Assembly (NCBI GenBank): GCA_026545225.1
Contig: CM048845.1
Span: forward strand, 123,757,533-123,821,532
DNA length: 64,000 nucleotides
Reading direction: 5' to 3'
DNA from: Cornus controversa
Taxonomy: Eukaryota; Streptophyta; Magnoliopsida; Cornales; Cornaceae
The notes under the pieces are model-generated. The model was not told the DNA's origin, did no database searches, and worked only from the letters and a program-made list of their open reading frames with translations. Below are positions 7,673 through 64,000 of the stretch, piece after piece (position 1 is the stretch's first letter; every line of letters begins with the position of its first letter). Both the position numbers and the translations under genes were made by a program.

Positions 7673-7779
7673 GACTCTTCCTTCTAGGGTCTGCACAGAG
7701 ACAGAGACAGAGACAGAGCTAATGGAAGTGAGGTCTTCGTTCTGTCATCTGTGTAATGTATTGCAAAGGAAGGGATGAA

Positions 7780-24659: not shown

Positions 24660-24812
24660 ATTAGAGCCCAACTTTCAGCCAACTAGCCAAAAGAGAAGGC
24701 CATTTTCGTCAACTCATCTAAACCCTAAACACCCTACATTCCAGTACTCTCATCGCCCCTCGAACTCAATTCCTTCTCTCCTCTTCTCAACTAAATTTTG
24801 CAGAAAGAAAAA
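24660..24812 (+). promoter_or_regulatory. RPL26 promoter with telo-box and site II element
   Basis: A telo-box AAACCCTAA lies at 24720-24728, about 85 bp before the start codon. A site II element (TGGGCT, inverse strand) lies at 24665-24670. This pairing is characteristic of plant ribosomal-protein and other cell-proliferation genes. Confidence 0.65.
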
Positions 24813-33532: not shown

Positions 33533-34080
33533 TAGGGATGACAATTTGCCCCGCCCCGCCTCGCCTCGTTTAAAACTCGTTTAAGAAAATGGGGTGGGGA
33601 TGGGGTTAGGGAAAATAACTCACGTTTAAACGGGGCGGGGACGGGGTAAGACCCTACCTCGACAGGTACCCGCCCCGTTTAAGTATACATATATTTATAA
33701 TCATATATATAATATATAAAGAAAATATTAATAATATATAAAAGAAATATTAATATTATATATATCATACAACTATACAAGTTTATTATATCAGTAATGG
33801 ATGATTCAATATTAGCTATTGTGTTGCATGTACCTAAATGTGTGTTTTTAGTATATATGTATCAAAATATCAGATTTATTATTATAAAAATTTTTGCATT
33901 AAAAAAAAAGAAAAAGTATAAATGGGGCGGGGCGGGGCGGGAAAAGTTAAACAGTTGTGGGGACAGAAAAGTCAAAATCCGCCCCACCCGCCCCGTTTAT
34001 ACACGATTGTAGGGCGGAAAAAGTTAAACAGTTGCAGAAATGGAGAAGTCAAAACTCACCCCGCCCCGTTGCCATCCTTA
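33533..34080. mobile_element. hAT-type MITE with GC-rich arms, 548 bp
   Basis: The ends are tagggatgacaa and ttgccatcctta, flanked by the perfect 8-bp duplication GGCTTATC (33525-33532 and 34081-34088), the hAT signature. Both arms hold runs of ggggcgggg/ccccgcccc beside gtttaaac, around an AT-rich core. A second full copy lies inverted at 47,744 and part copies at about 24,505 and 2,585. Confidence 0.85.
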
Positions 34081-35104: not shown

Positions 35105-35478
35105 GATAAATATATATGTATATACATATACATATATACAGCCATCCAGGTGGTGCCCAGCTTCTGGATGAACTCTCTTACTTTTAGTTTTATCTGTTAA
35201 GAAATTTCTTTCCTCCTCCATTTGAAGTCCAATGAACCGCGCGTGGGCACGACGTTTCTCCTTAAAAGCTTTATTTTGACATTTTTTCTTGACTTAATTG
35301 TTTCGTACCAAGTCAATACATCTTACAGGTGTTTGCATTTAAGTTGATCTTCTTCGTCACGTGAATTTTGGTTGGTGAGGGAGGCGATATCAATGTACTT
35401 CATTAGTAAGAGAATCAAATATAAAGATATTTGATTTTGACATTTAAAAAAAGGAAAAAAAAGTGCTTCTATTAAAAG

Positions 35479-36050
35479 GTGAGTGTGAATATGAAACACA
35501 TGAAAAGAAAGAGAGATAGAGCTATATATGTACGTACGATGATGGTGGAGGTGAAATGGATTGATCGAATGGTTGTGATGAGTGAGGCGGTTGATTTTGT
35601 GGTGATAGTGAAAGAGAAAATCAAGCTTGAAAGTGAAATAACATTAAACTTTTAATTTGTAAAAATATTAGATGAGTGTAAATATGAAACACATGAAAAG
35701 AAAGAGAGATGGAGTTATATATGTACGTACGATGACGGTGGAGGTGAAATGGATTGATCGGATAGTTGTGATGAGTGAGGCGGTTGATTTTGTGGTGACG
35801 GTGAAAGAGAAAATCTAGGTTGAAAGTGAAATAACATTAAACTTTTAATTTGTAAAAACATTAGATGAGTGTGAATATGAAACGCATGAAAAGGAAGAGA
35901 GATGGAGCTATATATGTACGTACGATGAGGGTGGAGGTGAAATGGATTGTTCGGATGGTTGTGATGAGTGAGGGGGTTGATCTTGTGGTAATGGTGAAAG
36001 AGAAAATCAAGTGAAATAACATTAAACTTTTAATTTGTAAAAACATTGGG
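35479..36050. repeat. Three tandem 193-bp repeats
   Basis: Copies start at about 35481, 35674 and 35867, each beginning gagtgtgaatatgaaac or nearly so. They contain atatatgtacgtacgatga, gtgatgagtgaggcggttga and acattaaacttttaatttgt. The last is slightly shorter. They end about 450 bp before the start codon of the small basic protein gene. Confidence 0.92.
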
Positions 36051-42460: not shown

Positions 42461-42483
42461 AGATATAGTTAATACTCCTAATT

Positions 42484-42880
42484 TTGGACTGGGTTTGGAT
42501 ATTATTAGTTTATGATTATGGAATAAATATTAAAATTGGTTTGAATATTATTAGTTGATATATGAAGAACAATATGTCACGTGTCAATCTGATGTTTTTG
42601 GACTGGGTTTGAATATTACTAGTTGATGATTATGGAATAAAAATTAAGATTGTTTTGAATATCACTAGTTGATGTATGAAGAACAATATGTCACAAGTCA
42701 ATGTGATGATTATTCCATAAATAATAAGATTAATGTGGACTGGGTTTGAATATTATTAGTGGATGATTACCGAGTAATATACATTAAGATTAATGTGGAC
42801 TAGGTTGAATGTTACTAGTTGATGATTATGGAATAAATATTAAGTAGTATGAAGAACAATATGTCACATGTGAATCCACT
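42484..42880. repeat. Imperfect tandem repeats, four copies of 60-140 bp
   Basis: The phrase ggactgggtttgaatatta recurs at about 42486, 42599, 42738 and 42799. Each is followed by agttgatgattatggaata and, in three copies, gaagaacaatatgtcac. Copies differ by internal deletions. Confidence 0.85.
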
Positions 42881-43870: not shown

Positions 43871-44214
43871 TGATGAGAGGATCCGCATGTCAACGGATAA
43901 AAATCTCCATTTATTTTCCAATGCTCTTATGATGAGTTTGAGTGTCTGCATGACCAAAGAGTGGGATGTAATAGGGCACGGCACCCATTCCGAGTGAGGT
44001 CAAAAAAAAAAAAAGGAAAGTAGGTGGAACAATGTAGAATTAATTGTCTTGAGAGTTGTTTGGCTGAAATGGAAGCAACCAATGAGCAGCAACAAAAATG
44101 GCCAAAAAAGCAAAGGAACAAAGACCACCTAATCATATACAAATTGAACCTTTCCAATTAACCGTTGCTGAAAGCTTTTCCTGATTCTTCATCCAATGCA
44201 ATCCCAAAAATATT

Positions 44215-46888
44215 TGACAAAAAAAAGTAGTGATACTAGCAACTAGTGGATCGTTATATATACGCACCAAGTTCCCCTTGGAGAGTACAAGTAGCATGCC
44301 TAGGAAGAGGGAGGGAGGATCTTTTTTTTTTTTTAAATATTTGTTTTCTTGGATCTCATGAACGACTAAAAATGTTTTTTTTTTCCTTCTTTTATTTATG
44401 TGATTTAAGGATTTTTATCTAACTTTTGTATATTACTTTATTAGGGAAGTTTGGACAAATTACACAGGTTGAAATATTTGACCATTATTACTCTAACCTC
44501 CTTTATAGACGTTAAATTTATAGTGCAAAATGACATTTTTATCTTCAATATAAAATAAAATATCATATGATTGAAAGGAAGGGCAAAATGGTCATTTTAA
44601 AAAATTTGGCTAACGGTTCTAACGGAAAAAAAAAATAGGGGTGCCGTTGAGCATACGCTGCCAAATTCAAAGGAGGTGAAAGTAAAAAATCTCAAATACT
44701 CTATCCATATGTAATTTGCCCAAATCTCGAGGAAGGTCATTGTAATTTACTCATTATATTAAGATACTTTGTTTGTTACGTAGAGATAAAACTCTCGATT
44801 ATTATGTGTTTTACTTAAATATATGGGTTTTGGTATTTTATTCATAACCCTGTTTAGAACCTAATACTTTAATAATTTTCTTTATTTGTTTAAATTCAAA
44901 TTTGTCAAATGTTCAATTCAAATTTAATTTTAAATCCATTTAATCCGTTAATGCTTGGAAGATTACATTTCATTATGATACATGAATTTGTTATGTGTGT
45001 GTGTATATATATATATCTATATATATATATATATATTTTCATATATTTGATTTTTTTCTGGACAAGACAACCTTAATAATTGACAGATTTATCTTACTTG
45101 AGGAAAACAATTACCAGAAGAAGTTAAAAATACCATTAATTCTCATAATTGTGGCCTAAAGAGTATCCTATTATTTGTCATGTTAGTTAATTTTTTTCAC
45201 AAGCTCAATTTATGCCCTTAAACAAAATTGATGAGTACATATTTTATACATGTTTTGCCTCCAAAATTATATTTGTTAGTACTTTATTGTATTTTTATTT
45301 TAATTAATAAATAATTTTCATGCCTTTTCAGGTTATTAGTAATTTTCACCCAAAGAGAGGTTATTTAGGTTATATGTAACAGAAAGCAAATTGAACAAAT
45401 AATATTTCAAAGACTAATTGTGTGGAGAGCAAGCAAACAATAGAATCCAAGGATCAAAATGAATTGAGGATAATTCTAGAAGATTTTAGATGGTCAAATT
45501 TGCTTGGACTTTAATTTCAAAGAAATCAACTTCTTAATTCAATTTGAAAACAAATTTGAAGGAAAGTTCTGAATGTGTCTTCGTATTTTGACCATATCTT
45601 TTGACTCATATATCAAATTGGTGTACTGTTTTCTGATCTGGAAAGAAGCCTACAAGTTTACAACTTTGTATTTTACAAAAATTTCATGAAAATCATTTCT
45701 TGAGGGTAAAACTTGAGATTCAAGTTGACGAAAATATTCTGTTCGAATTTTGGCAGATTTCTTCCCCAACAAGGACCTTTTTTTTTTCCTTCTTTTGAGA
45801 AACCTTGGAGTTTATTATAAATAGGGAATTGAGGCAGATAAGAGAACGAAGAGGAGGCACAAGATAAGAAAAAAAGGCAAAAAAGTCAGAGATCACTAGG
45901 TTGGAAGAAATTCGAGTTTTATTTATTTGCTTTGTTTTCTTTAATTATGTGTAGTTAAACTCCTTAACTAAGGTTGTGGAGGAAACTTGCATTGATGAAA
46001 TAAATTTATCTTATTTTATTTATCAATTATCATGTGCATGGTTTAAATGTTTGATGATTTTCTTTTTACATGATGAATTAGTTTATATTTCTTTCACCAC
46101 GTCTATCATGTATTTGTGGTAATTAGGATTAAAAAATAATTAATCTAAGCTTGATTTTATAATCTTTAAAAGTAAAAAAATTTGATCTTATGTTTTTCAA
46201 TAAGTTGAATACATATGAAAGTTGAAATTTTACACTTGTTAAGCGAAGGAAAATTTACTTTTTAAAATATTTTTAAATGAGTCTTAATGATCAAATCTTG
46301 TGAAAGCAAATGAGTGATATCTGGATTGCTTTTCTTAATTAGAAAATTGATAGATGAATAATTGAAAATTTATGGATTTAACAGTGATGGAATCCGATAC
46401 CTTAGTATGTTCTTTTATTGATTAAATTCTCATTAGCTTTATTTAAAATTTGCACCTTTAGTTTAATCTCTCAAATCAACAACTTTGTTCAACTAGGTTA
46501 TATTTAAATTAATTTGAATTTTTATTAGTTTTGTTATAAAGCAATTCCTTATGTTTAAGATCGTTTTTACATGTCTATACTTTAATAGATTTGTTCGCTT
46601 GTGAATTATTTTATTTTTTCAACACATCAATGATTATGTCTTTGTTCTAAAATTAGACAATATGATTTATTTCATCTAATGGATAATATTAAATAGAATA
46701 ATGTATGGTTAAAACATTCCTCTAACAAAAATATCTATGATCTCATGCGATATAAATATTTGTTAGCCAAAGAAAAAAAATAATGTTATAAACATCCATA
46801 TAGTTTTTGGACGTATGACCATCTTCAAGAAGAGTGTTAAGTACTATTCTTGCGTTTCCAAGTGCTCATGCCTAAAAAGGAAAGCACC
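44215..46888. mobile_element. 2.7-kb insertion present only in copy A
   Basis: In copy B the flanking sequences (…gatgcaatccccaaa and gatgtgttctaaaa…) are adjacent at 57,440-57,470. In copy A they are 2.7 kb apart. The insert contains a MULE-like stretch (44,440-44,760) and a retrotransposon-like stretch. The latter has a TATA-like tataaataggga at about 45,818 and cttcccc… leader-style sequence. Exact termini are not resolved and more than one event is likely. Confidence 0.55.
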
Positions 46889-47743
46889 ACCATCAAGATG
46901 TGTTCTAAAAAGAATAGTGTCGAAAATTACTGAAATTGTAATTACAGAAATCTGAACAGTTTTATGGCCAGCATTCAAATCTTTTATCGCCAGCTGCTTA
47001 GAGATCTTTTTGTTCATGTGAACTTTGAACACAACCTTTTAGGGCCAGTTGCTCTGTATGATTCTTTTTGTGGATAACCCACCTGACAAAGCAGATTTGA
47101 CCTCTCTTCCAATACATTCAAGTCATCATTTGTAGGCGTTTGAATGGATTAACATTAATATTAGTTGAGTATTGATTCTTCTCCTCTTTTCTCGTGAACA
47201 AAAATGCTACTTGTCCATTCTGGTCAAGTGGGCCACTTAGAAGAGTGGTGAACCTCACTATTAAATAGTGGTGGAAGTCACGTAACACTCTGTGAATGAT
47301 TCAGCAAGATTGAACTAGTATCACTCTTTTCAAAATTATTTAAAAAAATTTGAACCGAAAACAAATACATACACTTAATTTTAACACTTTATGTGCGGAT
47401 AAAATATCGTACCATCTGAATTAATAATACCAATATAACTGAAAGTTTATTTATTATAATATGATTAATTAGTATATCATTAAATTAAATTTTGTGTAGA
47501 ATTTATGCTATTTTGGTGAGAGGATAAGCGTAAAAGAAGATATGGGGCGAGACAATGGGGTGACGACACGTGGAAGGATAGGCACACCACCTTATCATTC
47601 TTTTTTTCCTTTGTGAGCCGGAAAAGCAACAGTGAGAGAAAGAGAGTATAGGTAGGAATTAGGATAAGCCACTTGTGGTGGGGTTTAATTTATCCAACTC
47701 TCTAGTTTCTTCTCCATGCTTCATTTTTTTGACAACTTGCATG

Positions 47744-48309
47744 TAGGGATGGCAACGGCTGGGGTGGGGCGGGTTTTGCCTTTCTCATAACCAAAATCGT
47801 TTAACTTTTCTCGCCCCGTCCCGTAACCGTGTATAAACGGGGCGGGTTTTGACTTCCCCATTCCCATAACTGTTTAACTTTTCCCGCCCCGTCCAGTTTA
47901 TACATTTTTTTTTATGCAAAATTTTTTATAATAATAAATATGATATTTTGATACATATACACCAAAAACACACATTTAGGTACTTGCAACATAACGGATA
48001 ATATTGAGTCATCCATTACTGATATAATAAACTTGTATAGTTGTATGATATATATAATATTAATATTTTCTTTATACATTATTAATATTTTCTCTATATA
48101 TTATATATATAAGTATAAATATATATATACTTAAACGGGGCGGCTACTCGTCGGGGTAGGGTCTTATCCCCGTCTCCGCCCCGTTTAAACGCGGGTTATT
48201 TTCTCTAACCCCATCCCCACCCCGTTTTCTTAAATGGTTCCGTAAACGAATTTTAAACTGGGCGAAACGGGACGAGTACCCGACGGAGCAGGGCAAATTG
48301 CCATCCCTA
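47744..48309. mobile_element. hAT-type MITE with GC-rich arms, 566 bp
   Basis: The ends are tagggatggcaa and ttgccatcccta, with the perfect 8-bp duplication CTTGCATG (47736-47743 and 48310-48317). It is the same family as 33,533-34,080 in the opposite orientation. It is absent from the corresponding place in copy B, so it inserted after the segmental duplication or was lost there. Confidence 0.88.
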
Positions 48310-49339
48310 CTTGCATGTATGGCTAGCCGTTGACGCAACTCTATATATTGTGCATCAATTATAATTGTTACGTTGATAATAGGATTTGAGCAATTAATTA
48401 GGACACTAATGTGATTCGAGCTCACTTGCTCTCTGGGATGGACCCACATTGGGGATTATATACCTACAATTTTAGTATTATATATCAGAACTTGCCTCCA
48501 TAAAATTACAAAAAATAAAAAAAATTTCACTAGGGCCCCTAATATTTTTTTAAAATCTCTCTTTTCCTCTCTCTTTGTCTGCTTTCTTTCCTCTGTATCA
48601 CTATGTATCTATAAAAACTTAAATTCATTTAATTTTTTAATAAATAAATTAAAAAGTAATAAAGTAAATATTTTTTTTTCCTTCAAAAATTCTTAATAAA
48701 TAAAGTAAATGTTATCAATTAATAATGATAAAATTTTCAATTATATTATTATTATAATTTATTTATTCTTATATTTTTTTTTGTTAAAGGTTGTCTCCCT
48801 CGAAAAATTTTCGAGTCCACTGCTTTCCTTTGTTAGAACACCTGTTGTCCAAAAACATAGCTATAAGTAAATTGTATTTAAGGTGATCACGTTACCAATA
48901 AAATCAACATAATGAAAGGTAAGGATATAAAAAAAAATGATAAGTCATTTTCATTAGATATACACGTAAACACTTGTATGTATGTAATCCTGTAAAAAAG
49001 TTTTTTGAGATTAGATTTAGTGTCTTTTTTTCTTTTTGGGTATGGGGATTAGATTTGATGTCTACAACTTGAGTTTCCCACCAGCAGAATTTGTTTTATA
49101 GAAATGACAAAAATAGAACAAACTAGTTAATTCTCTTCCTCGTGAATTAATATATAATAGGACTTTGCAGTATAGCGAGGCTTCAAAGAATTACCAACAA
49201 ATAACTTCAAGCACACGTATTTGATAGAGCATCAGCACTTGGGGCCGGGGTTGGTATACTTGAATTTCTTTTCCACATTCAGCCTTTCTCATAACTTCAA
49301 GTTATGAACCTCCTGCATATATGCATGTTTCAAAAATGA

Positions 49340-49375
<36 letters not shown>

Positions 49376-49779
49376 GCAAAAGAAAATCAAGCTGCGTGGG
49401 AGAGAAAAAAAACCCACCCTAATAAAGTAATATAATACTACAGTAAGCACTAATCATAACAGGAAGATGAAATAGCTAATAAACAAAAATTCCTTTGACC
49501 TATAGCTAAAATTTAAATGTTTCAAAATCAACCGTCACTAATGCATGTCCAGTGTTGTTTTAAGTCACTTGTGATCTAATATTATGATTGAAAGCTACAA
49601 TACAATATAGAAACATTAAGTAGGCGCTGACCCGTAACCGTAATAGTGATAGAAAACATAAATATAACTAAGTGTAAAAATTCAAATTGGTCACTTACCA
49701 AAGAACTTCAAGCAGCTGGCCTTATGGGTGTCATCTCTTGGGAACATATATGGTCCACACAGGTAATATATATGCATAT

Positions 49780-49830
49780 ATAGATTTTCCCTATAAATAG
49801 AGGGTTTGGGAAGTCCTTAATTAGGTCATC
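49780..49830 (+). promoter_or_regulatory. TATA box of MIR157 gene A
   Basis: TATAAATA at 49792-49799 sits inside ttttccctataaatagaggg. The block is nearly identical in copy B (60,631-60,650). It lies 128 bp before the mature miRNA, so transcription probably starts near 49,825. Strong conservation of this block in both copies supports a real polymerase II promoter. Confidence 0.65.
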
Positions 49831-49889
49831 CAAAATTAACTCTCTGTGTGTCTGAAGATATATATATATTATATATATATATATGAACA

Positions 49890-50025
49890 ATAGAGGGAGG
49901 AGGCATACGGGTGATGCTGTTGACAGAAGATAGAGAGCACAGATGATGAAGTGCATGGAGTCTTTGCATCTCACTCTTTTGTGCTCTCTATCTTCTGTCA
50001 TCACCTTCAGCTCCTCACTCTGTTT
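49890..50025 (+). ncRNA. MIR157: microRNA 156/157 precursor hairpin, copy A
   Basis: The mature miR157 sequence, which starts with T then TGACAGAAGATAGAGAGCAC, is at 49920-49940. The opposite arm at 49981-50000 is its exact reverse complement over 20 nt (GTGCTCTCTATCTTCTGTCA). A 40-nt loop of the usual family form lies between them (gatgaagtgcatggagtc). The stem extends outward with gtgat/atcac pairing. miR156/157 represses SPL transcription factors and controls the juvenile-to-adult transition. The gene is on the plus strand with its own TATA box upstream and a second, decayed hairpin 233 bp downstream. Confidence 0.95.
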
Positions 50026-50099
50026 TTTTTTTTTTTTTTAAGGTAAATGATTTGGCCATGGCATCCTGATCGATTAGGCCATTGAAGTCATCTATATAA

Positions 50100-50260
50100 A
50101 TATATTGTTTGTATACAATAGGGAGATAGGGGAGGAGGCAGTGGTGATATTAATGACAGATGATAGAGAGCGCGCACAAATATGATGAAGTGCAGAAAGC
50201 CCTAAACCTTCACCCCCAGCGCATGCCCATACCATTACTTCTATCACCATCATTGATCAT
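50100..50260 (+). ncRNA. Decayed second MIR157-like hairpin, copy A
   Basis: A duplicate of the upstream hairpin region: acaatagggag, gaggaggcagtggtgat and then TGACAGATGATAGAGAGC at 50154-50171, then gatgaagtgcag. The miRNA arm has one internal substitution and then diverges (gcgcgcac). The expected star arm is no longer complementary (gcgcatgcccatacc…), so Dicer-like processing seems unlikely. Confidence 0.6.
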
Positions 50261-51699
50261 CTTTATTATTATTATTAAAACTATCACTAGAAGTAGAAGA
50301 ATTAAAGATCTTGTTCGATATCTAGCATATCATGATCTGCTCACTATCTCTCTACAGGTGTGTTCATATATGTGTATATATAGCACTGCTATTGTCCAGC
50401 ATTCATATTACAAAAAATATAACATATATAATTGAGCATATATTATTCTAGGATTTCTTCTCACATATTGTATGCAAATGAGATCGAGCTAGATCTCATG
50501 CATTCAATTTTTTAAATTGATTTATATTTTCACTTGTTTTGTTTGATCACTTTCATTTCCCGTTCATTGTTAATTTGTTTGTTTGTTTTTCTTTTATGGG
50601 TTTAATTTAGTGTACAAAAAGGACAGAAGCATGTCAGTATGTTTTTCATTTCTATTTCCATTGTTGTGCTTGTTCACTTCTATTAATCTCATTAACAATC
50701 GATCTAATTAAGCTCTCCTCTAAGGTTTTCTTGTACCACATCAACTAGCTAGTTTCCTTTTTCCTTAATGAAACTCCATTAAGTGCTATTGATCTGAGAT
50801 TCATATATATATATATATATTGGGTAAGGTAAGTATGTATATTGATAGAAGAGGGTAGAAACAAGCATCCCTCATCTTCTCCAGGATTCTCTCTTTCCCA
50901 AACCATGCATCAGAATGCATTCTAACCCCTCCTTCCCCTGCTGTGGTTTGGGAGTCATTGGTATATATTTATATGATTCACATCAAATATCCCCATATAT
51001 ATATATATATATATATAGTCCATTGTAGCAACTCGAGATCGAACATCAAATCCTAGCGGGTAAACTTGTCCTGGGCAGCATATATATATATATATGTGTA
51101 CCACATTTGGGAGGAGAGGAGGAACAACATAATGTTCAGAAATAGACTCTCTACACCCACTGGCTGTCCTCAATATGCAGATTTTTTTCACTCAAACTCG
51201 AGGGCGCAAACTAAGGAGGATACAAGAAGAGCTAGCCATACAAACAAGCTACAGGGTGCATCAAGACATCAATATTTAGCTGAGATTCATAGTTAAAATA
51301 TAATTCATGGGGTGGCCTCTCCGCACTACTTGCTTACACCTGACCTGACATATGTGGGTGACCAAATAGTGCACAAGGTTTATGGGATTGGTTTTTCTCA
51401 TACACATCACCGTTTGCACGCACTTTCTCCAACTACTTGTTGCTCATGACTTAGCCAACCAGGCACTAATTCATGGTCTGATTGTATGTCTATGAGGTAA
51501 TTGGCTTGACCATTTTCATCGAGATTTTCACTCTCTCAGGTTTCTTACCAATTTTGTATTTATAAGCTACAATTTCACGGGTAATCATTTGAACTGAGAG
51601 ATTGTTTTTCTAATTTCTGAATGTGTGGTAAAACATTATCCCCATATATTTATCATTGCCAAGAAATATTCATAATTTCATATATTTTATCTTGGTTAA

Positions 51700-52500
51700 T
51701 TTTAACACGTAACTTGCATTCCATTAAAAAAATAATGTTCAGTTTTTTAAGAAAAAATTCCAAATTCAACATTTTAAATTCTAGGCAAAGCATTAAAGTG
51801 ACACAATTAATTTAAGTCTAAGATAGAGTTCATGGTCAAGTAATTAACTCCAGGGACCACTCAAAGCAGTCATTATTGTTGCACCATATATCAGGGCATG
51901 CTTCATTGCTTCTGGTTTTCTTTTGTTATAACATATATGTAACGTACTTGTACCATGTTGATGGTAAAACAACATGCTAGGTTATTGTTTTGCTCAAATT
52001 TCATAGAAGTAAATGAGTATTTCATGTTCAAGAATCTTTAATCATCGAGGATATGTGTCCTTTTGATGGATTACATTGTGTTTGCATCAGGGCGGTTCAA
52101 TATAATTTGAGGGACAAAAAATATAGAATGTGGCCTTTAAACATGTAATATTTTAATATAAAATATTAATTAATAATGTCTATTTAAAAATTAATTTTCT
52201 TACTTGTATATGTACATATTCAAATATATACATGTACAAGGCTCCAGAACTAAAAAATAAATATTTTTTGAAATCTTTTTGAATTTTCAGTGTTTAGCAT
52301 ACAGTGATAAGTGATGTCTCTGTCACTTAAAATTTTACTCTATTTTAAGTGATGCTTACCATTTTTAGTGATATTTAAATTGTGTTATGAAACACATTTA
52401 ATTGGATAAATTCTTAATCTATTCAGAATTAAGCATTGAATTGAGTTATCAAACAGCACATAAGACTCTAGCCAGCCCTATATTGCATTCCTTACCGTAA
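51700..52500. other. AT-rich intergenic stretch
   Basis: No gene or transposon ends are supported in this part of copy A. Confidence 0.45.
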
Positions 52501-52897
52501 TGCTTTGTTTGGTAGGAAGGAAGAAATTTGGATGCATGGAAGGGAGAGAAGGGGGGATGATGAGACATTCTTTATGAAGAGATTATGTTCTTCATTTTTT
52601 TGTTTGGTTGGATGGAAGAGAAGAGAATGAGATAATACCTTTATTACTTTGTTTGTTAGAAAATAAAGGAAGAGAAATAAAGAAATTTTTGTAATTTAAA
52701 ACATTTATAATAGCATTACATGTCTTTCTTTCTGTCTTCTGTCCAAATTTGGAGGGATGAAAATTTGTAAAAGAGGAAGAATAGCTTATCTATCCTTTCT
52801 TTCTCTTCCTTCATTTCATCTTTTTTGCCAAACGAATGAAATTTGCTTATTCTTTCTTATCTCCACTCCTCTTCCTTCCTTCCTACCAAACTAAGCA
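52501..52897. mobile_element. Tourist/PIF-Harbinger-like MITE, 397 bp
   Basis: The inverted ends are tgctttgtttggtaggaagg and tgcttagtttggtaggaagg (inverse strand). The flanking TAA duplication is at 52498-52500 and 52898-52900. There is no coding content. Confidence 0.8.
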
Positions 52898-53311
52898 TAA
52901 AATTGCCTTTCTAAGCACATGCCTCTATGTCAATAACTGTAATAATATCATGACCCTTTCTTAATTTAGACTACTATCAACTTACATCTCTTTTCTTACT
53001 AGGTGTATTGGTTATTGACATTTTTGAATGAAGGAGAGAAACAAGGAAGCCTTCGTGCCTAATAAAAAAAAAAGACATTGTAACCCTAATGGAAAAAGAG
53101 ATGCCAAAACCCACAAGTGCTCTCTGAAAGGTGGCGACGGTGGTGGTTGAAAAATCAAAGGTCAACAAAGAAATTAGATTGATAAATTTATTCTACATGT
53201 ATGTACATATGTATATATTTGAATATGTACAAAAATTCGTACAATGATATATTTCTCAGTATATATATACATGTGATTTTTTTTATATTTTTTGGGTGGG
53301 TATTACCATTT

Positions 53312-53738
53312 GGGCAAAATACATTGACATCTCTTGAATTTGGCCTAATTACACACGACAGTTATGATTGACGCTTATTGCACCATACACTCCTAGATGT
53401 TATGAAATTTCCTTTTTACCCTTAATATTTTAATATTTTTAAATAAAAAATCTTTTAATGTGAAATATCTATCTTGTCCACCATATATATATATATATAT
53501 ATTAATACTATGGAGTATTTTTTACATATGTCAAGGGTAATTTTATCAATGTTTTAATAGTATTTTTGTCATTTCATTGCAGACAAGGGTAATTAAGTCA
53601 TTTTTTAAAATTTTATTATGGGAAGGAAGATCGTTGATGACAAGAGCTTAACCTCAAAGAAAAAGGTGTAATAAATGTCAAACATGGTTGTGGTGTGTAA
53701 TTAAACCAAACCTCGAGGAAGTTAGTTTATTTTACCCT
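53312..53738. mobile_element. Small Mutator-like MITE, 427 bp
   Basis: The ends are GGGCAAAATACATT… and …TTTATTTTACCC, with inner ttgaatttgg/ccaaacctcgagg pairing. The 9-bp flanks TTACCATTT (53303-53311) and TTACTATTT (53739-53747) differ at one base. It is the same end type as the MULE at 31,442. Confidence 0.7.
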
Positions 53739-54296
53739 TACTATTTACACAAGTGATTGTACATACATACAACTCAAGTTTGAGCCGAGCTTAAGGTTGG
53801 TTGAACAATGACGAGCCAAGCTTGAACTTTTCTCCCAAAGTCGTCCAAATATGAGGTGAGTCCCGACAACCCAATGCTTGGCTCGATTAATTCCCACTCT
53901 TAATTAATGGGATGCATATTAGGATATCATGATGATACTTCTCCTCTAGCTTGATAAGGCTCAACTTAAACTAAAACCTTATTTCGATAGATTCTAACCC
54001 TCACCATCATAGTTTGTAACATCCCTAATTCACTGTTTTCCCTATACTACATCATTGCTTGGTGTTTTCAGTAAACAAACTGACCGTAAGCTGTGATCTT
54101 TCAATTCGAGGCAGAGGATTTTTTTGATTTAAATGTATTTTCCTACCCAAATTTCACATTCTTCCTTTATATTCAAAACATTACAACTTAGAAATTCGAG
54201 TCAAAGGAGATACCACCCACTGACCCAAGTGTGCTTTTTATATTTATTTATTAGGCAAGTACTCACGCAGTGGTGGAATTAAACCCAACAATGTTG

Positions 54297-54423
54297 GAGA
54301 TAACAGAGTTTTTGTTTCAATGATAGTAAGAATACCAATATTCTGCTGATTTAAGAAGGACTTGATCTCAATTTGTTTTACAAGGAAATTGAGGCGGCTT
54401 ATGTTCCAAGCTGAGATGGTCAT
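54297..54423 (-). pseudogene. Start of a LINE endonuclease ORF (fragment)
   Basis: The minus strand from ATG 54421-54423 reads MTISAWNISRLNFLVKQIEI and continues …QQNIGILTIIETKTLLS. This is the typical beginning of plant LINE ORF2 (WN.RGLN.P.K, then I..L.ETK). Similarity ends abruptly, so it is a fragment. Confidence 0.65.
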
Positions 54424-54787
54424 TTGGAAGTGAATTTCAGAGTCCTAATTAAGCCCCTAAACCCCTTCAAGGTATGTTTGTTTGATGAGAAGAAGCTTAA
54501 CTTGACTTGGACTTGAGCTTTTTAAGCTTCTTAATTCCTTTCTTTTTATTGATGGTAGTTTGAAACTCAACAGATGAGCAGGCAGATTCAGTTTCAAAGC
54601 TACTGGTATATATAAGATGATTCAAAGTGCAGCCACATCATCATGCAAACTATCATTTGTATCATCTTCATTGTCAAGTTCATCAGAACTTTCAGCATAT
54701 ATATATTATCCATAGGAGTCATTTTGAGGTTAGATAGAACATTGAATTGGTTTGATAGTTGGTTTGGTTAGGTTTGTGATTGACTTG

Positions 54788-55525
54788 TTAGGATGGGACG
54801 GAATGGGAGAGGGGGTTTGCACTGTGGAAGGATAAATGATTCCACAATCTTCTCGGAGGTTGTCTAAAAAGGGTGATTGACTCCAAGACTTTCTTCGTGA
54901 ACCCATGGAAGAGCTCATCAATGATCTCACTTCCAAAGTGCTCTCTTATCAGTCCTTCATTTCCCAAGCAGCTCTCGTATGCAACATAAACATTTTTGAT
55001 ATTAGAAACTGCTTTTTTCATTGTAAGGTCGCGAACTAACAGTTCCATTTTCACAATTCTGAAACACCCATTTTCCTCTATTAGTTTCTCCAACTCTTGT
55101 GAGGTTGGGTTGTACTTGGGGAAGTTTAAGGAGTCCACTTTTTCTTCACTCACCACAATCCTTTCAATTAGGATAATCAATTTTAACTAAGTCACAAAGA
55201 CAGTTCAACTTCTATATTATTAAGGTCTTATTTCAAGAAGATATTGGGTGCGTCAAGAAAATGATCTATATTAGTTTCTTGTCAACATTTTTATATGTAG
55301 AACAATTCTATTTTTCATCTGGATGCGGGCTATTTAGGGTTTGCCTCGTGTACTTGTAAAAAATGCTGACAAGAAGTTGATACGGTGTGTTTTGGAAGTG
55401 GTGATTTTTGATCAGTTCATGCTAAGAAAGAATTAATATTTTCTAAGAAAAATAAAATAAAAATGGAAGAACTCTTACCATGTTGGCCATGTCATGAAGA
55501 CTGGCTCCTAAAAGATGGACGATTG
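54788..55525 (-). pseudogene. SABATH-type methyltransferase gene fragment
   Basis: The minus strand encodes the C-terminal part of the SABATH family, which methylates carboxyl groups of salicylate, jasmonate, loganate or similar acids using SAM. The end of one exon (55489-55525, LLGASLHDMANM, donor gtaaga) is separated by about 290 bp from the last-exon part 54840-55180 (IVVSEEKVDSLNFPKYNPTS, LIEENGCFRIVKMELL, IREHFGSEIIDELFHGFTKK). The SAM-binding half is absent upstream. The two parts do not join in frame with the obvious splice sites. A frame change near 54,890 moves the C-terminal tail into another frame (SPFLDNLREDCGIIY). I call it a pseudogene. The substrate cannot be inferred. Confidence 0.7.
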
Positions 55526-55680
55526 CACTATAAGGGAAAATGCTGGTTTTGAATTTTTAGTATTAATTTGTTGTGGAAACCATGTATTTCATTATCAAGC
55601 GGGAAGACTACATGTGCTTCTTCCCTCCAAAAAGCGGTATATTGGGAGAAAATCTTTTTTCTTTCTGCAATATGATGGCA

Positions 55681-55830
55681 ATAAATTATGGAAGTCATAC
55701 ATACACTTTTTCTGCAATACAAATCTTGCCTCATCGGAAAAAAATAAATTATGGAAGTCATACATACACTTTTTCTGCAATACAAATCTTGCCTTATCGA
55801 AAAAAAATAAATTATGGAAGTCCGAGCAGC
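55681..55830. repeat. 63-bp tandem repeat, 2.3 copies
   Basis: Units start at 55681, 55744 and 55807 (ataaattatggaagt…). The unit is 21 codons long, so both strands stay open across it. This explains the long but unconvincing frame at 55515-55949. Confidence 0.9.
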
Positions 55831-56039
55831 ATGGCTCCGGAGAATGGTTATATATATATATATATATTTGGGCTGATCATCTTATAAAATGGTATGATGC
55901 ATACTTGTGTAATTCTAGGAGCATTAGGAGATCAATCGTGATAAGGTAACAAGCTTGTTACCAACAATTTTCATAGCAATCTAATATGACACCAAGCGAT
56001 TAGTTTTACTTTTTTATAATTGATTGTTACCTTGTTACC

Positions 56040-56950
56040 AGCATTTCTGAGTAAAAAAAGAATACGATATTATTGGTTAAAATACTTTTTTTTTTTTTCT
56101 CTTCTGTTAACTTTTCCAAACAAGAATGTTATTATTTCTTTTTTTTTCTTTCATAATTTATCCAAAGATGAACACAAATTATTGTTATCCTTTTTTTTCT
56201 TTTCTCTCTTGTTTATCCAAACAAAACCTAAAAGGACATGAAAGTTTTGTGCAATTTCACTTTCTTTCTTATTAAGTAATTATTACATGCGTTTCCTTTT
56301 TTTTACATTTACACTCTTATTTTAGAAGTAATGATACTTCTAACCCTAACTTCACAAATGAATGATTATCTTTTTTCAAATTATACAAATACACTTTCAG
56401 ATATCCCTTTTCTGTCTCCTTATCATGTTTTTGAGTTTTTTGACCGAATAAAAAAAATACAAAAAAATAGCTAATTTTTTTTTTTATATCTCTTGATTGG
56501 ATCAAAAAAATAAAATATTATCTATGCTATATAAATGATCTCTTTTTACATGACCCAAAAAAAGTACTAATTTTTTTTTTTATCTCTATTGAATAAATTA
56601 TCTCTTTTCACAGGGAAAAAAAGTACACTATGCAAAAAAAAAAAAAAAAAAAGGACCTAAATTTTTTTTAATCTTAATTATCTTTTTTGATTGAGTCCAA
56701 AAAAATTCATCTCTGTTAAATAAATTATTTTCTTTGACAAAATCAAATATATATATACAGTACGCAAAAAAATAAATAAAAGAACTCAACAAAAATTTAT
56801 CTCTATTGAATAACTTATATCTTTTGAAACGACCCAAAAAAAATTATCTCTATTGAATAAATTATTTATTTTGATATGACAAAAAAGTATCAAGAAAATA
56901 TTTCTCTTTTAACCTGGCCACAAAAAAATAATAGTGAAGGAAGTAAAGAG
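56040..56950. repeat. Low-complexity region with degenerate tandem repeats
   Basis: Poly-A and poly-T runs alternate with recurring tttatctctattgaataaa and gacccaaaaaaa phrases, roughly every 70-100 bp between 56,480 and 56,880. No coding potential. Confidence 0.7.
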
Positions 56951-58071
56951 TGTAAAAAAAGGTTAAAAGTTTACAATACAAAGAATAGTTATGACATTAT
57001 AAAATTATAGATGATACGAGTTTAAAAATTTTGTTGCTATTTTATTTAACAAAAAAATATAAATAGAGTGCAATAGGAAAAGAGAAGGGCCGAAATATGG
57101 CCTCCCAGTATTATTGAACTAAATACACTGATTTATTAGACAGGAGCTGTCAAAGGATAAATCTCCATTTCTTTTCGGATGCTGTAACGATGAGAGTGTC
57201 CACATGCACAAAGAGTGGGGCTGTAATAGCACACGGCACCTATTAGAGAGGTCAAAAAAAGTAGGCGCGACAGTGTAGAATGCTCTTGAGAGTTGTGTGG
57301 CTCAAATGTAAGCAAACCAATGAGCAGGAATGAAAATGACCAAAAAGCGAAGAAACAAAGATTACTACGCAATCATACACAAATTTAATCTTTCCAAAAC
57401 CTTATGCTGAAAGGTTTCCTTGATTCTTAATCGATGCAATCCCCAAACACAGTAAGGATGTGTTCTAAAAGGATAGTATAGGAATTTGGTGCAATTGTCA
57501 TTGCAATGTGTGCTGGACTCGGAACACAACCCTTTAAGACCAGTTACTCTGTATGATTCATTTTGTGGGTAGCCACCTCTGACCACTCTTCCAATTCAAT
57601 TCAACATATTGAAGTGGTTGAATTAATTAACATAAAAAGAAGATGAGTATGGATTCTTGTCCTTTTTTTTTCAAAATAAAAATGTGACTTAGTTGGACAG
57701 ATTTGCATCAGGTCGGCTACTCATAATAGTGGTGTATCTCACCACTTAGTGATGACTTTGGTTGCATCACTTTTTAAAAATTATTTTTAATATTTTTATT
57801 TTCTTTTCAAACGCATGCACACGTAATATTTTTCCACTAAGATGCCAACACCTTACCTCTCCTTTTGAAGAGAAAGGAATACTATTCCATCTACAATAAT
57901 GTCATTGATAACTGAATTTTTTATTATTATAACAAAATTCATTAGATTATTAAATTCAATTTTCTGTAGAATTTATTCTATTTTGGCATGATTCTATAAT
58001 CTGCCAGAGGACAAGCAAAATAGAAAAGAAATACGGGGTGGTGACATGCGGAAGGATAGGCACATTTGTGA

Positions 58072-59388
58072 CATATATTTTTATAATCGGTAATTTTCGT
58101 GTCAAAATCAAACATGATCGAGTTGTATTTGTTAATTTATATTTCGAATATTGATCATGTAATTGAAGTCTTAGAGTGAGTATGAAATTTTACACTAACC
58201 ATACAAACGTTTGTCAAATGATGAAATTTAAATTTTCGAAAAAAGTCATCAAGGGTCTACACAAGGATTCGATCGTTTGAAGTTTTGAGATGGTTTCGAA
58301 TGCATAAAGACATCGTTGATCACATATGAGAGTCACGTAGTTCAGGTAAAGTGGTGAGAACACTATTTTTCAAACGAGGAGGTTCCAACCTTGAAAAGAG
58401 GAATTTTTAAACAAAACAGTGCATTTTTCAAGGTTGGACTGGTCCAAGGGGTCTGAGCAACTCCTGCAGAGTCTGCTACAGGAGTTGGACAGGTCCAACT
58501 TTTTTGGTCTGCGAAATTTGACCAGTTTTGTTCTGTTTTGATCCAAAACTTTCTAAAATCATGAGACTTATTTCCTATTGGATTTTAACTTGTTTTTCAA
58601 AAAAATTAGGATTTTTAATCTCTATAAAAATCTTATATGGTTTCTCTTTCAAAACATGTTTTCAATATACAAGAGATACATATTCTAGAGAGAGAAAGTA
58701 TTGAAATATTTTTCTGAGCGGAGAATTTTTTCCTCAAATTATTTGTCTATATTTTTTAGAGCGCACACATATTCACTGAGTGATTTTAGGATGTTCTCTA
58801 TATTTGCTTGATCAATTGTTCGAAGACTGCATTGAAGCTTTTTTTATGATCAAATTACTGGATTGGTGTCTTCTACAACTGTTCGTTGGTGAGGAATGAG
58901 AAGAATATCGTACTAAGAAGGGGACAGAATACTTGCTGACTGTTCGTATTCTTCCAGTTACCCTTTTGAGAGAATTTTTGACGTTAATCGGGAATCTGCA
59001 GCAGTTGGACGAGATAGTCGCAATTATAAGCCTAATGTGTTCCGCATTAGAGTTCTTGTTAGAGTGAAGGGGGTGTGATCCTGAGATATAATCTGTTGTA
59101 CTTTGCTTCGACGATAGAGGGTTTATTTCTCCGGAGTTACAAAGCTTCACCTGTGATTTTCTTTCTTCTTGAGTTTTCTACATATATGTGAGGCATTCGT
59201 ATACTTTATTTTACTCCACTTTATTTACTTACTTTGTGGAATTAGTTTAATTATTAATTAAATTTAAAATTGAATAAATCGAATAATTAAACAAAAAAAT
59301 CATAATCACTCACTCTCTCTCTCTCTCTCTCTCTCTCTAAATTCGCACTTCTCCGCCGTCCAACTTAGAACACTACCTAATAATTCTT
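58072..59388. mobile_element. Insertion specific to copy B, LTR-like
   Basis: The flanks ggataggcaca (58,060) and ttatttgtgagccggaaaag (59,389) are about 20 bp apart in copy A (47,577-47,625). The 1.3-kb insert starts near tgtgacatat. It has a copia-LTR look: tctctataaaaatc near 58,620 as a possible TATA region, then agcgcacacatattcactgag and gggtgtgatcctgagat. It has no open frame. Its end, with a CT microsatellite at 59,312-59,338, is not sharply defined. It may be a solo LTR. Confidence 0.5.
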
Positions 59389-60624
59389 TCTTATTTGTGA
59401 GCCGGAAAAGCTACAGAAAGTACGGGTAGGATAAGGCAGTTCTTTCCCTGACGCAACTCTCTCTGTCACTATCTCGTACATTTTTCTAGAAGCTCGCAAA
59501 ATTGAATCTAGCTTCCAAGCATTTACCTTAGATGGACATGGAGATGTGGTGTCCTAAAACTACCTCTATTTTTACAATGGTCACAATTAATGTTGACTAT
59601 TTAGTCAACAAGGTATATATAAAAGTTTAAATTATTAATGCCCACAATTAATTAATGACAATAAAACATCAAACAAACTGAAACATATGTGCATAGCGTT
59701 ACCGTGACTGAGCAAAGTAAGCATTTGCATCAACTATAATTGTGCATTTGAATAATAGAATTTGAGCAATTAGGATAGTATTTGTATGTTAGAACAGCTG
59801 TTGTCCAAAAACATAGCTATAAGTAAATTGTATTTAAGGTGAACACGTTACCAATAAAATCAACCTACAATAATGATATAAAATGACAAGTCAATTTCGT
59901 TACATATACACGTAAACACTCGTATGTATATAGTTAATCCCTTAAAAATGTTTTTGTAGATTATATTTCAGGTCTTTTGTTAGATATGAAAATTAGATTT
60001 TATCTCTGCAACTTTAGTTTTCCACCATCTGAATTTGGTTGGTAGAAAAGACCAACACAGAAAAACTATATAATTCGCACAAGGAAGTTCCCTTGTCCAT
60101 GTATAATTTGATTAGAACAGCACCTCGAAAGGACTTTCAAACAACTTCAAGTTATCATGAACTTCCTGCATATATGCATGTTTGAAAAATGAGACACGTG
60201 CGCGCGGGCATATATATATATATATATATATATGTTAAGCAATAGAAAATCCGTGGGAAAGAAAAAAACCCTAATAAAGTAATATAATACCAGTACGCAT
60301 TAATGATAACACGAAGAAGAAATAGCTAATAAACAAAAATTCGTTTGACCTTCAGCTAAAATTTAAATGTTTCAAAATCAACTATCATTAATGCATGTCC
60401 TGTTGTTTAAGTGACTTGTGATCTAATATTGTGAATGAAAGCTATAATATAGAGAGATTAAGCTGGCGCTGACCTGTAACCGTAATAGTGATAGAAAAGG
60501 TAAACTATATGTAAAGTGCAAAAATTGAAACCCCTCAGAAGCATTTACTTGATGTAGCTGGACTTGGTTGGCATGCCTTGGTAACATGGTCCATACATAT
60601 ATCCTATATGCATAGACTATATGG

Positions 60625-60670
60625 ATAGATTTTCCCTATAAATAGAGGGTTTGGAAACTCCTGAGACTAG
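60625..60670 (+). promoter_or_regulatory. TATA box of MIR157 gene B
   Basis: TATAAATA at 60637-60644 in ttttccctataaatagaggg, matching copy A base for base around the box. It lies 116 bp before the mature miRNA. Confidence 0.65.
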
Positions 60671-60719
60671 GTCATCCAAAATTAACTGTGTGTGAAAATA
60701 TATACTATTATTTATATCT

Positions 60720-60850
60720 ACAATAGAGGGAGGAGGCATATATGTGATGCTGTTGACAGAAGATAGAGAGCACAGATGATGAAGTGCATGGAGTCTTTGC
60801 ACCTCACTCCTTTGTGCTCTCTATTCTTCTGTCATCACCTTCAGCTCCTC
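60720..60850 (+). ncRNA. MIR157: microRNA 156/157 precursor hairpin, copy B
   Basis: The mature miR157 sequence (TGACAGAAGATAGAGAGCAC preceded by T) is at 60753-60773, identical to copy A. The star arm at 60814-60834 has one extra T (gtgctctctattcttctgtc), making a one-base bulge in an otherwise full duplex. Loop and lower stem match copy A (gaagtgcatggagtctttgc). It should give the same mature miRNA as copy A. Confidence 0.94.
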
Positions 60851-60889
60851 ACTCTGTTGTATATACATGTGTCTTGATTATGCCATCAA

Positions 60890-60895
<6 letters not shown>

Positions 60896-60963
<68 letters not shown>
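60896..60963. repeat. (CT)n/(TA)n compound microsatellite
   Basis: About 18 CT repeats are followed by about 16 TA repeats, located between the two hairpins of MIR157 locus B. Confidence 0.95.
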
Positions 60964-60967
<4 letters not shown>

Positions 60968-60984
60968 TGTATACAATAGGGAGA

Positions 60985-61115
60985 AGAGGCAGTGGTGATA
61001 TTATTGATCGACAGACGATAGAGAGCACAAATGATGAATTGCAGAAAGCCCTAAAACCTTCACGTACCCCCCACAGCGCATGCTCATACCGTTACTTTTA
61101 TCATCTTTATTACTA
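60985..61115 (+). ncRNA. Decayed second MIR157-like hairpin, copy B
   Basis: A sequence matching miR157 at 19 of 21 positions lies at 61008-61028 (CGACAGACGATAGAGAGCAC), followed by gatgaattgcag as in a family loop. The opposite arm (gcgcatgctcataccgttac) no longer pairs well. It corresponds to the decayed hairpin of copy A, so it existed before the segmental duplication. Confidence 0.6.
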
Positions 61116-62899
61116 TTAAAACTATCACTAGAAGTAGAAGAATCAAAGATCGTTCTTCTCTAGCATATCTCCTCACTATCTCTCTACAGGTGTGTTCATA
61201 TATAAAATATTTATGTATATATATAGCACTGCAATTGTCTAGCATCCATATTACAAAAAATAACATATATATATATATATATATATATTATTCTAGGATT
61301 TGTTCTCACATATTGTATGCAAATGACATATCACATGCATTCAATGTTTCAAATTCATTTCTATTTTCGCTGTTTTGCTTTATCACTTCCATTTTCTGTT
61401 CATTGCTTGTTTTTTTACTTCTTTCTTTCTATTATGGGTTTAATTTAGTGTACAAAAAGGACCGAAGCATGTCAACATGTTTTTCATTTCTATTTCCATT
61501 GTTGTGCTTGATCACTTCTATCAATTAGAGTACTCATTTAAAATCGATCTCATTAAGCTCCTTTCAGGATTTAGGATCTCGCGCGTGTAGCACACTGCCC
61601 AACTAGTTTTCTCTTTAATTTCTTAATTAAACTCCGTTAAGCGCTATTGACCTGAGATTCATAGTTGATCATTCATGGCGTGGCCTCTGCGCTCTTATTA
61701 CTTACACCTGAAATATGTAGGTGAGATTCATTAGTGCACAAGGTTTATGGAATTGTTTTTTTTTTTTTTAACGCACATCATCACTCTTTCAAGATTCTTA
61801 CCAAATATATAAGCTATAATTTTCATGGTTAATCATTTGAAAGGAGAGAATTGTCATTATAATCAAAATCGTCATCTTTGCTTTTGTGTGATGTGAATGG
61901 GGTTGGCCACATGAATTTTATCTCTCTTTGAGATTTTTTATTATATGCTAATTCAGCTCCTGTATTAACTTTTTAAAATTATTTTTAATAACTTCATCCT
62001 ATGTCATTTTCGGTTGTTCTCTCAATCTCTTACCTTCCATTACAACTAGTCTTTCTTGTTTTACTGGTGTATCACTAGGTTTCCGATGTATGCTACACCT
62101 ACTTTTCCTCACACTTGGAAGGAGAGTATTTTTCTAATTTCTCAATGTGTTATAAAACATTATTCCGTAAATTTATCATTGGCAAGAAATTAACATTCAT
62201 AATTTTATAAACTATAATTATATCTTAATTAAAACAACACTGTAACCTTGTTCCTCAATTATAGTGGAAAAATTAAGAAATAGAGAGAGCATCTTATTGG
62301 ATTATCAACCCACTAATATTGGTCCCATCAACGCAATTGTCACAGTCGATGGTAGGAATACACAAACAGTTCGAGCTCGGCTTTATAATACTTCTTTTCA
62401 TTAAATAAAGAGCTGGCTCTAATTAAGTTCATATTTCAAACTCGTACAACAAATGAATTGAGTTTGAACAATGGTAATGTTCTGTTTGACAGAGCTTTTG
62501 TTTCGACTTTTACGCAGAAGAAAAAAAGAAATAAAAGTTAAATGAGGAAGTTAGTACCCACCAACTTCTTTTAGTCTTTTCAAATTCAAATACTCTCCGG
62601 AACGATTTTTAAACTTAAAAAATCAAAAATTTCTTTTCAAAACCAATTCACACAGAGTCTAAAGTTTGACTAGTTGGACTTCTGACTAAGGTATACTAAG
62701 TTCAATTTAGTAAGCCCATATGTCATAGGTTGAGCCCGAACTCATATTATCATTCAAGCCCATCTTGTTAAGGCCCGTAACAATAATCAACGTTATGAAT
62801 TATAAAGCATTAGATTACTTTCTCATATCTCACTTTCAGATCCACTTGTTGGTTCTCTGTCTTCTCTCTCACTCTTTCACTTTCATCTTCGCCGAAACC

Positions 62900-62980
62900 A
62901 TGAAAAAGAAGACCCACAAGTGCTCTAAGAAAGCTGGCGACGGTGGTGGTCGAGAAATCAGAGGTCGACGAAGAAATTAA
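62900..62980 (+). pseudogene. Short basic frame shared by both duplication copies
   Basis: ATG at 62900 opens a 26-residue frame (MKKKTHKCSKKAGDGGGREI…). The matching stretch in copy A (53,085-53,165) keeps cccacaagtgctct and ggcgacggtggtggt but has a stop after the GGG run. It could be the remains of a first exon. I do not recognise it. Confidence 0.25.
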
Positions 62981-62984
62981 AACC

Positions 62985-62986
62985 AT

Positions 62987-63031
<45 letters not shown>
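62985..63031. repeat. (TA)n microsatellite
   Basis: About 21 TA repeats in copy B. Confidence 0.95.
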
Positions 63032-63033
<2 letters not shown>

Positions 63034-63196
63034 AATATACATAAAATTTTGTACAAAGATATGTTACTGGATATATATAGATATGTGATTGCATATATAA
63101 ACACACATCAATTTCTTCTTTTAGCTTGGTATGGCTCAACCCAAACCAAAAGCTTATTTCAATAAATTATTTGTAGGTTGGATTTTAATTTTTCGG

Positions 63197-63767
63197 GTTA
63201 AATTCATAAAACCCCTCTATTATCAAAATTTTTCATAAAACTGCTTGAATTTTCAAAAACCTCATCTATTATCAATTTATCTTATATAAGGACAAATTAA
63301 ACGGCTTCATCAATTTGATAATGAAATTACCAAAATATCCTTCCTTTATTTAATAAAATAAATTCATAAAAAAAAATTATTTGTAACCGAAGGATGTACC
63401 CTTTATGAAGGAGTAATTTGAGAAAATTAGAAAGTAGAGGGGGGTTTCTTGATTGGGTTAAAATCATAAAACCCCCCTTCTACTATAAAAAAATTCTCAT
63501 AAAACTCCCTTTTACTATAAAAAATTCTCATAAAACCATCCTTACTATGAGGGTATTTTAGTCCTTTTAATTTCAATAGATATGTCAAGGTAATTTAGTC
63601 ATTTACACACCACTTAACAGCTCACGTGAGATGCACGTGCGGCTTCTAGATCTCCGTTAATTTCAACGGAAAATAATGAGAGGGGACAAATTGATTGATT
63701 TTTTTAGTATAAGGAGGTTTTATGAGAATTTTTGATAAAAGAGGGGGGTTTTATGAATTTAACCCTT
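63197..63767. mobile_element. Mutator-like MITE with a repeated left end
   Basis: The ends gggttaaattcataaaaccc and its inverse at the right (…gggttttatgaatttaaccc) pair over about 50 bp. A second left-end copy starts at about 63,455 (gggttaaaatcataaaaccc). The flanks ttaatttttc and ttaattttat resemble a 9-10 bp target-site duplication. It is specific to copy B. Confidence 0.6.
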
Positions 63768-64000
63768 AATTTTATGGCCAAACCTTTAACATAGTAGTTT
63801 GTAATCTTGGTGTTTTCAGTAAACAAGCTGGCTGTGAGCTCTAACCTTTCAATTCGAGGCGGAGTATTTTCTGATTTGAATGAGTTTTCCTGCCCAAATT
63901 CCATATTCTTTGTTTATATTCAAAACATTACAACTTGTAATGCCCATATCTTCATTTCTTCTCTGAGGGATATTTAGATGCCCATTTAGTATGTTGAATT

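Follow-up and report, generated by a model that had tools for sequence, protein, structure and literature searches.

Two MIR157 genes of Cornus controversa with putative relic second hairpins, probable members of an old tandem segmental array

We analyzed a 64,000-nucleotide stretch of the Cornus controversa genome (C1:123757533-123821532 of the 771.7-Mb assembly in 61 contigs; hereafter, the window), which contains two microRNA (miRNA) hairpins, A and B, carrying an identical 21-mer, TTGACAGAAGATAGAGAGCAC, the miR157 sequence. The 21-mers are located at 49920-49940 and 60753-60773, both on the + strand and spaced by 10,833 bp. Probably, A and B belong to an old tandem array of duplicated segments that holds three intact MIR157 genes with one hairpin each. 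The third of these genes, copy C, lies beyond the end of the window, and a four-hairpin MIR157 array (M1 to M4) and a single locus (S) are present elsewhere on C1. The features of copies A and B in the window are as follows.

43888..55536, + strand: duplicated segment of copy A, with blocks that match B and/or C in direct order and are interrupted by insertions
49780..49808, + strand: core promoter block of copy A, with TATAAA starting at 49792, conserved among A, B and C
49897..50022, + strand: MIR157 hairpin of copy A, with a bulge-free miRNA/star stem, from its fold and an Rfam MIR156 match below the gathering score
49920..49940, + strand: miR157 21-mer of copy A, exact match
49983..50002, + strand: predicted star strand of copy A, one base shorter than that of B, an apparent loss common to copy C
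50112..50230, + strand: putative relic of a second MIR157 hairpin in copy A, with a 5' arm at 50153-50173, no 3' arm and a fold z of +1.58
54791..55186, - strand: methyltransferase gene fragment in copy A (Pfam Methyltransf_7, E 3e-17), which we take to be of the SABATH carboxyl methyltransferase type
57109..64000, + strand: duplicated segment of copy B, made of collinear blocks and continuing beyond the window to about C1:123822376
60625..60653, + strand: core promoter block of copy B, with TATAAA starting at 60637, conserved among A, B and C
60726..60855, + strand: MIR157 hairpin of copy B, whose star arm has one additional, bulged base, from its fold and an Rfam match below the gathering score
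60753..60773, + strand: miR157 21-mer of copy B, exact match
60816..60836, + strand: predicted star strand of copy B, with an extra T as in the four array hairpins
60960..61075, + strand: putative relic of a second MIR157 hairpin in copy B, with a 5' arm at 61008-61028, no hairpin and a fold z of +1.56

The window contained five matches to TTGACAGAAGATAGAGAGCAC at up to 3 mismatches, one of these being the opposite arm of hairpin A, read on the minus strand; 100 shuffles contained none. Folding gave -66.8 kcal/mol for hairpin A (z -8.45) and -62.7 kcal/mol for hairpin B (z -6.65), with 0/200 shuffles being equally good in either case. In both copies, the miRNA was contained in one arm with near-perfect pairing, the mature TTGACAGAAGATAGAGAGCAC being on the 5' arm as in MIR156/157 precursors. 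Thus, the claim of the first-pass annotation that two hairpins with an identical miR157 arm lie about 10.8 kb apart was confirmed by the exact 21-mers, their spacing and the strong folds. A permissive search of 47-64 kb matched Rfam MIR156 to hairpins A (E 2.3e-07, 47.4 bits) and B (E 9.3e-07, 45.2 bits), with accompanying minus-strand matches over both that represent the usual palindrome effect. Neither hairpin reached the MIR156 gathering score (62 bits), and the window was empty at the gathering threshold; however, this weighs little because the miRNA arm matches exactly. The identification of A and B as real MIR157 precursors is, hence, supported at the sequence level. For reference, Table 1 of PMC5929574 prints the read of MIR157A,B,C in an aligned layout.

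The hairpins are embedded in collinear blocks in direct orientation, 43888-54189 for A and 57148-63936 for B within the window, and the collinearity was found to extend to about 55536 in A and about C1:123822376 in B when DNA beyond the window was included, in agreement with the long collinear flanks described earlier. The third intact copy, C, was found at C1:123850102 on the + strand, 31.8 kb beyond copy B, with a hairpin, a TATA block and a relic of its own. Furthermore, a 419-bp block located 1.6 kb downstream of hairpin A was present at four places in the genome including itself (E<=1e-10), all within one 42-kb stretch, and further copies lay at about +20 and +42 kb relative to A. In front of the block copy at C1:123828831-123829413, a search at E 1e-5 gave no match to the promoter or hairpin. 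Based on the third copy and the four places of the 419-bp block, the array on C1 reads A, B, a partial copy lacking any detected hairpin, and C, and hence holds at least three intact MIR157 copies as judged by sequence. The locus had been described as present twice, which holds within the window but not genome-wide, given the third intact copy and the partial segment copy. Pieces related to the methyltransferase were also observed past the window end in copy B (C1:123821882-123822201, 39-67% identical by tblastn). Separately, an inverted repeat pair with 83% identity was noted at 33580-34080 and 47744-48234, the second copy being inside segment A.

The TATAAA motif starts 128 bp upstream of the 21-mer in A and 116 bp upstream in both B and C, as had been stated for A and B (the same TATA block 116-128 bp upstream of each hairpin). 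Only 1/29 columns of the TATA block varied in the alignment of the three copies (p=0.002 vs the rest without the hairpin), and TATAAATAGAGG of this block was also found upstream of the four-hairpin array and of the single locus S, so that conservation of the core promoter across the copies is supported at the level of alignment. Variable columns were likewise rare in the hairpin, at 2/102 compared with 297/1097 elsewhere (Fisher 4e-11), although flank microsatellites that aligned poorly account for part of this contrast. The promoter and hairpin had been described as kept, and these low proportions agree with that. We infer that the low variation of the hairpin reflects constraint on all three copies, which would explain the near-identical hairpins because the identical 21-mer also occurs at a locus 20 Mb away.

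Genome-wide, the exact miR157 21-mer occurred 8 times, always on C1, in three arrangements, namely the tandem segments with a relic, a single locus and a four-hairpin array. The single locus S is at C1:103501727 (103.50 Mb) on the minus strand. The array at 121.35 Mb, which is 2.46 Mb from the window copies and on the opposite strand, comprises four intact hairpins at C1:121345725-121346633 (minus strand) with spacings of 273, 277 and 338 bp, and one TATA box stands in front of the four (C1:121345600-121346800). Since M1 to M3 have spacer sequence in common, part of the array probably expanded later. All 8 loci folded as hairpins, with energies from -56.6 to -67.3 kcal/mol over 135 nt (shuffle controls being those of A and B), and the four stems of the array also formed in a 1150-nt fold.

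Several other matches were encountered in the genome searches. An inverted repeat like MIR157 at C4:11710585-11710703, which was the sole match outside C1 in one genome search apart from a short AT-rich repeat of the query, appeared decayed by eye, with 1 mismatch in the 19-mer core and a poor other arm, and was excluded from the count of intact loci. The 19-mer TATAGAAGATAGAGAGCAC, which resembles miR157 with 2 mismatches, had 23 occurrences among the matches listed, including three same-strand pairs with spacings of 3850-3859 bp (such as C2:29541189 and 29545047), like the two ends of a mobile element. The miR156 core GACAGAAGAGAGTGAGCAC was found, as sequence matches only, at five loci (C1, C2, C3 and two on C7), as compared with the eight exact 21-mers of miR157. 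The SPL-type target pattern TGCTCTCTCTCTTCTGTCA had 15 exact matches in the genome at the sequence level, and the reversed pattern used as a control had 1 match at up to 1 mismatch. The 11 one-mismatch matches of GACAGAAGAGAGAGAGCAC coincided with exact matches of the SPL-type pattern on the other strand and are possibly targets, not MIR loci.

Each copy also contains a degenerate second 5' arm, which the first-pass annotation had missed. It matches the miR157 arm at 18/21 positions in A and at 19/21 in B, starting 233 and 255 bp, respectively, after the start of the miR157 arm, and its counterpart in C is 218 bp after the 21-mer. A matching 3' arm was sought for this relic 5' arm and none was found. 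A working second hairpin in A and B was considered and rejected, since 188/200 and 193/200 shuffles were as good as the folds of 132 and 135 nt (z +1.58 and +1.56), respectively. The relic region varied between A and B at 18/110 columns, much like the alignment overall (228/1436, relic and hairpin included). In folds of about 515 nt, the main hairpin retained its own pairing, and therefore the relic arm is not predicted to be a competitor. The window copies, with one intact hairpin and one relic each, thus differ from a multi-hairpin gene, which is defined by at least two intact hairpins on the same strand within roughly 1 kb.

The sequence following the relic is informative as to its origin. 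In comparisons with the 3' flank of M4, evaluated with 300 dinucleotide shuffles each, the relic 3' flanks scored 97 in A (null maximum, 78) and 84 in B (null maximum, 73), and alignments examined by eye indicated that the relic and M4 have part of the loop in common. These comparisons support, without proving, descent from a MIR157 gene that had at least two hairpins and whose last hairpin lost its 3' arm. In the simplest such history, an ancestral gene comprising a first hairpin and a last one would have given rise to both lineages, the gene at 123.8 Mb having lost the 3' arm of its last hairpin before the segment was copied, and that at 121.35 Mb having kept the first and last hairpins and multiplied those between them. 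Not all comparisons point the same way. The 3' flank of relic C is only weakly similar to M4, with a score of 59 that was equalled in 21/300 shuffles; relic B also exceeded all shuffles with M3 (70 vs a maximum of 68); the scores of relic A with M1 and M3 were equalled in only 7/300 and 19/300 shuffles, respectively; and the whole-unit scores placed the relics nearest to M1 rather than M4, despite 50 extra bases for M4. That last result, together with the similarity between hairpin 1 and the relic stopping in the loop in both copies, would also fit a duplication of the promoter and 5' arm only, by which the second 5' arm would never have been in a full hairpin. We regard this as unlikely, as in both A and B the similarity of the post-relic sequence to the 3' flank of M4 exceeded that of every one of the 300 shuffles, and M4, whose loop is the one partly retained by the relic, has its 3' arm.

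The star arms of A and B had been reported to differ by one base, and the comparison of the arms bore this out, the single base being the only difference between the miRNA/star duplexes of A/C and B. The extra base was present in B, M1 to M4 and S and absent in A and C (6 vs 2); it is T in B and the array hairpins and G in S. The star-arm sequence is CTCTCTATCTTCTG in A and C and CTCTCTATTCTTCTG in B and M2 to M4, and the duplex energy was -33.5 kcal/mol without the extra base and -27.1 to -29.7 kcal/mol with it. The difference had been described as a bulge in copy B, but the extra base is also carried by five other hairpins of the genome. Because most loci carry the base, including the outgroups M and S, it is most likely that A and C lost it and gained a bulge-free stem, the bulge being the older state. 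The sisterhood of A and C, however, is based on few characters, the outgroup-polarized sites numbering 3 for AC, 2 for AB and 1 for BC (125, 108 and 90, respectively, when unpolarized), and a tree of hairpin units, with one starred branch, leaves the order of A, B and C unsettled. With so few characters uniting A and C, the base could have been lost twice or the loss could have spread by gene conversion.

The loss in A and C would produce a symmetric and more stable miRNA/star duplex, and these copies may differ from B in the length of the mature product or in AGO1 loading despite having the same miRNA arm. It is, however, quite unlikely that the symmetric duplexes of A and C and the asymmetric one of B lead to a difference in mature length, AGO1 loading or the triggering of secondary small interfering RNAs (siRNAs). 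The star arm of Arabidopsis MIR157A-C also has an extra base, which is a point against a functional role of the bulge. Another is that Arabidopsis MIR157A-C yield 21-nt miRNA, according to Table 1 and the Northern analysis of PMC5929574. In favor of it, bulges in the duplex can alter miRNA length without affecting the other strand, which remains 21 nt long, and duplex asymmetry can induce secondary siRNAs (PMC7292542). Bulges and 20-nt miRNAs are also the subject of Lee et al. 2015, as cited in PMC7292542 and PMC5929574. It has also been described that miR157 of Arabidopsis, although abundant, has lower activity than miR156, a difference that the authors tie to poorer AGO1 loading and to an additional U at the 5' end of the 21-nt form (PMC5929574). 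Should the asymmetric precursors release a 20-nt product in part, the activity of B would differ from that of A/C. Such a difference, if true, would mean that the MIR157 genes are split in function in a manner invisible to comparison of mature miRNAs.

The divergence of the flanks bears on the age of the array. The central local alignment of A and B (1617 columns, hairpin included) had a gapless identity of 0.864, a Kimura two-parameter distance (K2P) of 0.150 and 182 gap positions, and the remaining A-B collinear blocks at least 100 columns in length had K2P values between 0.156 and 0.389. Among A, B and C, K2P was 0.20-0.24 over 1274 shared columns, which is an overestimate, B being unalignable at its 5' end. 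Because the collinear flanks differ by 0.15-0.39 substitutions/site with many indels, the duplication appears old and far from fresh, and its earlier description as recent is not supported.

Among the alternatives to three intact genes in an old array, it is rather improbable that only one or two copies are active and the others decaying, with the strong hairpins of A and C owing to gene conversion or chance. Each copy does contain a dead second hairpin, no hairpin was found in the partial copy, and birth and death of MIR genes are described as common (PMC2812943); however, all three copies have kept both the hairpin and the TATA block amid diverged flanks, and the hairpins differ in their loops and star arms, which argues against simple homogenization. 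A recent local duplication of one locus into two active ones, with a present-day dosage effect on the juvenile phase, would account for the identical miRNA arm, the kept TATA block and the near-identical hairpin, but is very unlikely in view of the flank divergence by block with its many indels, the third intact copy and further partial copy, and the constraint that would itself explain the identity of the hairpins. Usual haplotype differences are far below the flank divergence between A and B. An assembly artefact in which diverged haplotypes were placed in tandem, which the direct orientation would fit, is extremely improbable because A and B diverge by at least 15% and have different insertions, and because additional copies follow at about +20 and +42 kb, with the neighboring block at four places and only here.

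Taken together, the DNA itself shows the three intact copies, each with a conserved hairpin and TATA block and with a second 5' arm left as a relic. The three genes of the old tandem array would each be transcribed by RNA polymerase II from their own TATA promoter, DCL1 would excise the same miR157 from each copy, and all copies would feed one miR157 pool that represses SPL genes with AGO1.

The window contains several other features. A Helitron-like element is located at 13769-18460 on the - strand, with Helitron_like_N and PIF1 domains in a 1085-aa frame and a further helicase piece in a neighboring frame. The stretch 5219-7744 on the - strand contains an exon of an M16 peptidase (Pfam E 4.6e-49) and, in a second frame, a weak M16 match below the cutoff, which together resemble a subunit of the mitochondrial processing peptidase. 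The open frame at 24795-25262 on the + strand matches ribosomal protein L26 over its full length (Pfam 1-82 of 82), and tandem repeats are present at 35477-36047 (unit of about 193 bp) and 42482-42824 (unit of about 114 bp).

The tandem MIR157A/MIR157B of Arabidopsis, which corresponds to a single copy in Arabis alpina (PMC12404414), is similar in being a tandem MIR157 duplication with the same mature miRNA. The present locus is different in that it has at least three intact copies and a partial copy, with relics and a four-hairpin array nearby. Two-hairpin MIR156 genes have been described for maize Corngrass1, rice, sorghum, sugarcane and Ipomoea (PMC2358906), and the spacings of the relics (218-255 bp) and of the array (273-338 bp) are within the 190-590 nt given there; unlike those genes, the window copies have one hairpin each, and the array at C1:121.35 Mb has four, of the miR157 type. 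Clusters of one MIR family, such as MIR395, commonly arise by tandem and segmental duplication (PMC2812943), and the present case, which combines tandem and segmental duplication with loss within one family, shows no difference in kind from what is reported for them. No description of a four-hairpin MIR157 array was found in searches of the open-licence literature on MIR157 tandems and clusters. The present case, thus, represents an ordinary route of MIR gene multiplication, tandem MIR157 genes and multi-hairpin MIR156 genes being kinds that are already known.

In Arabidopsis, the length of the juvenile phase depends on the summed dose of miR156/157 near a threshold (PMC5929574). Given this dose threshold, the extra MIR157 copies of Cornus controversa could matter, and a dosage effect on the juvenile phase is plausible. 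The loci would also provide a natural series for asking whether the number of MIR157 hairpins or the bulge in the star arm sets the dose.

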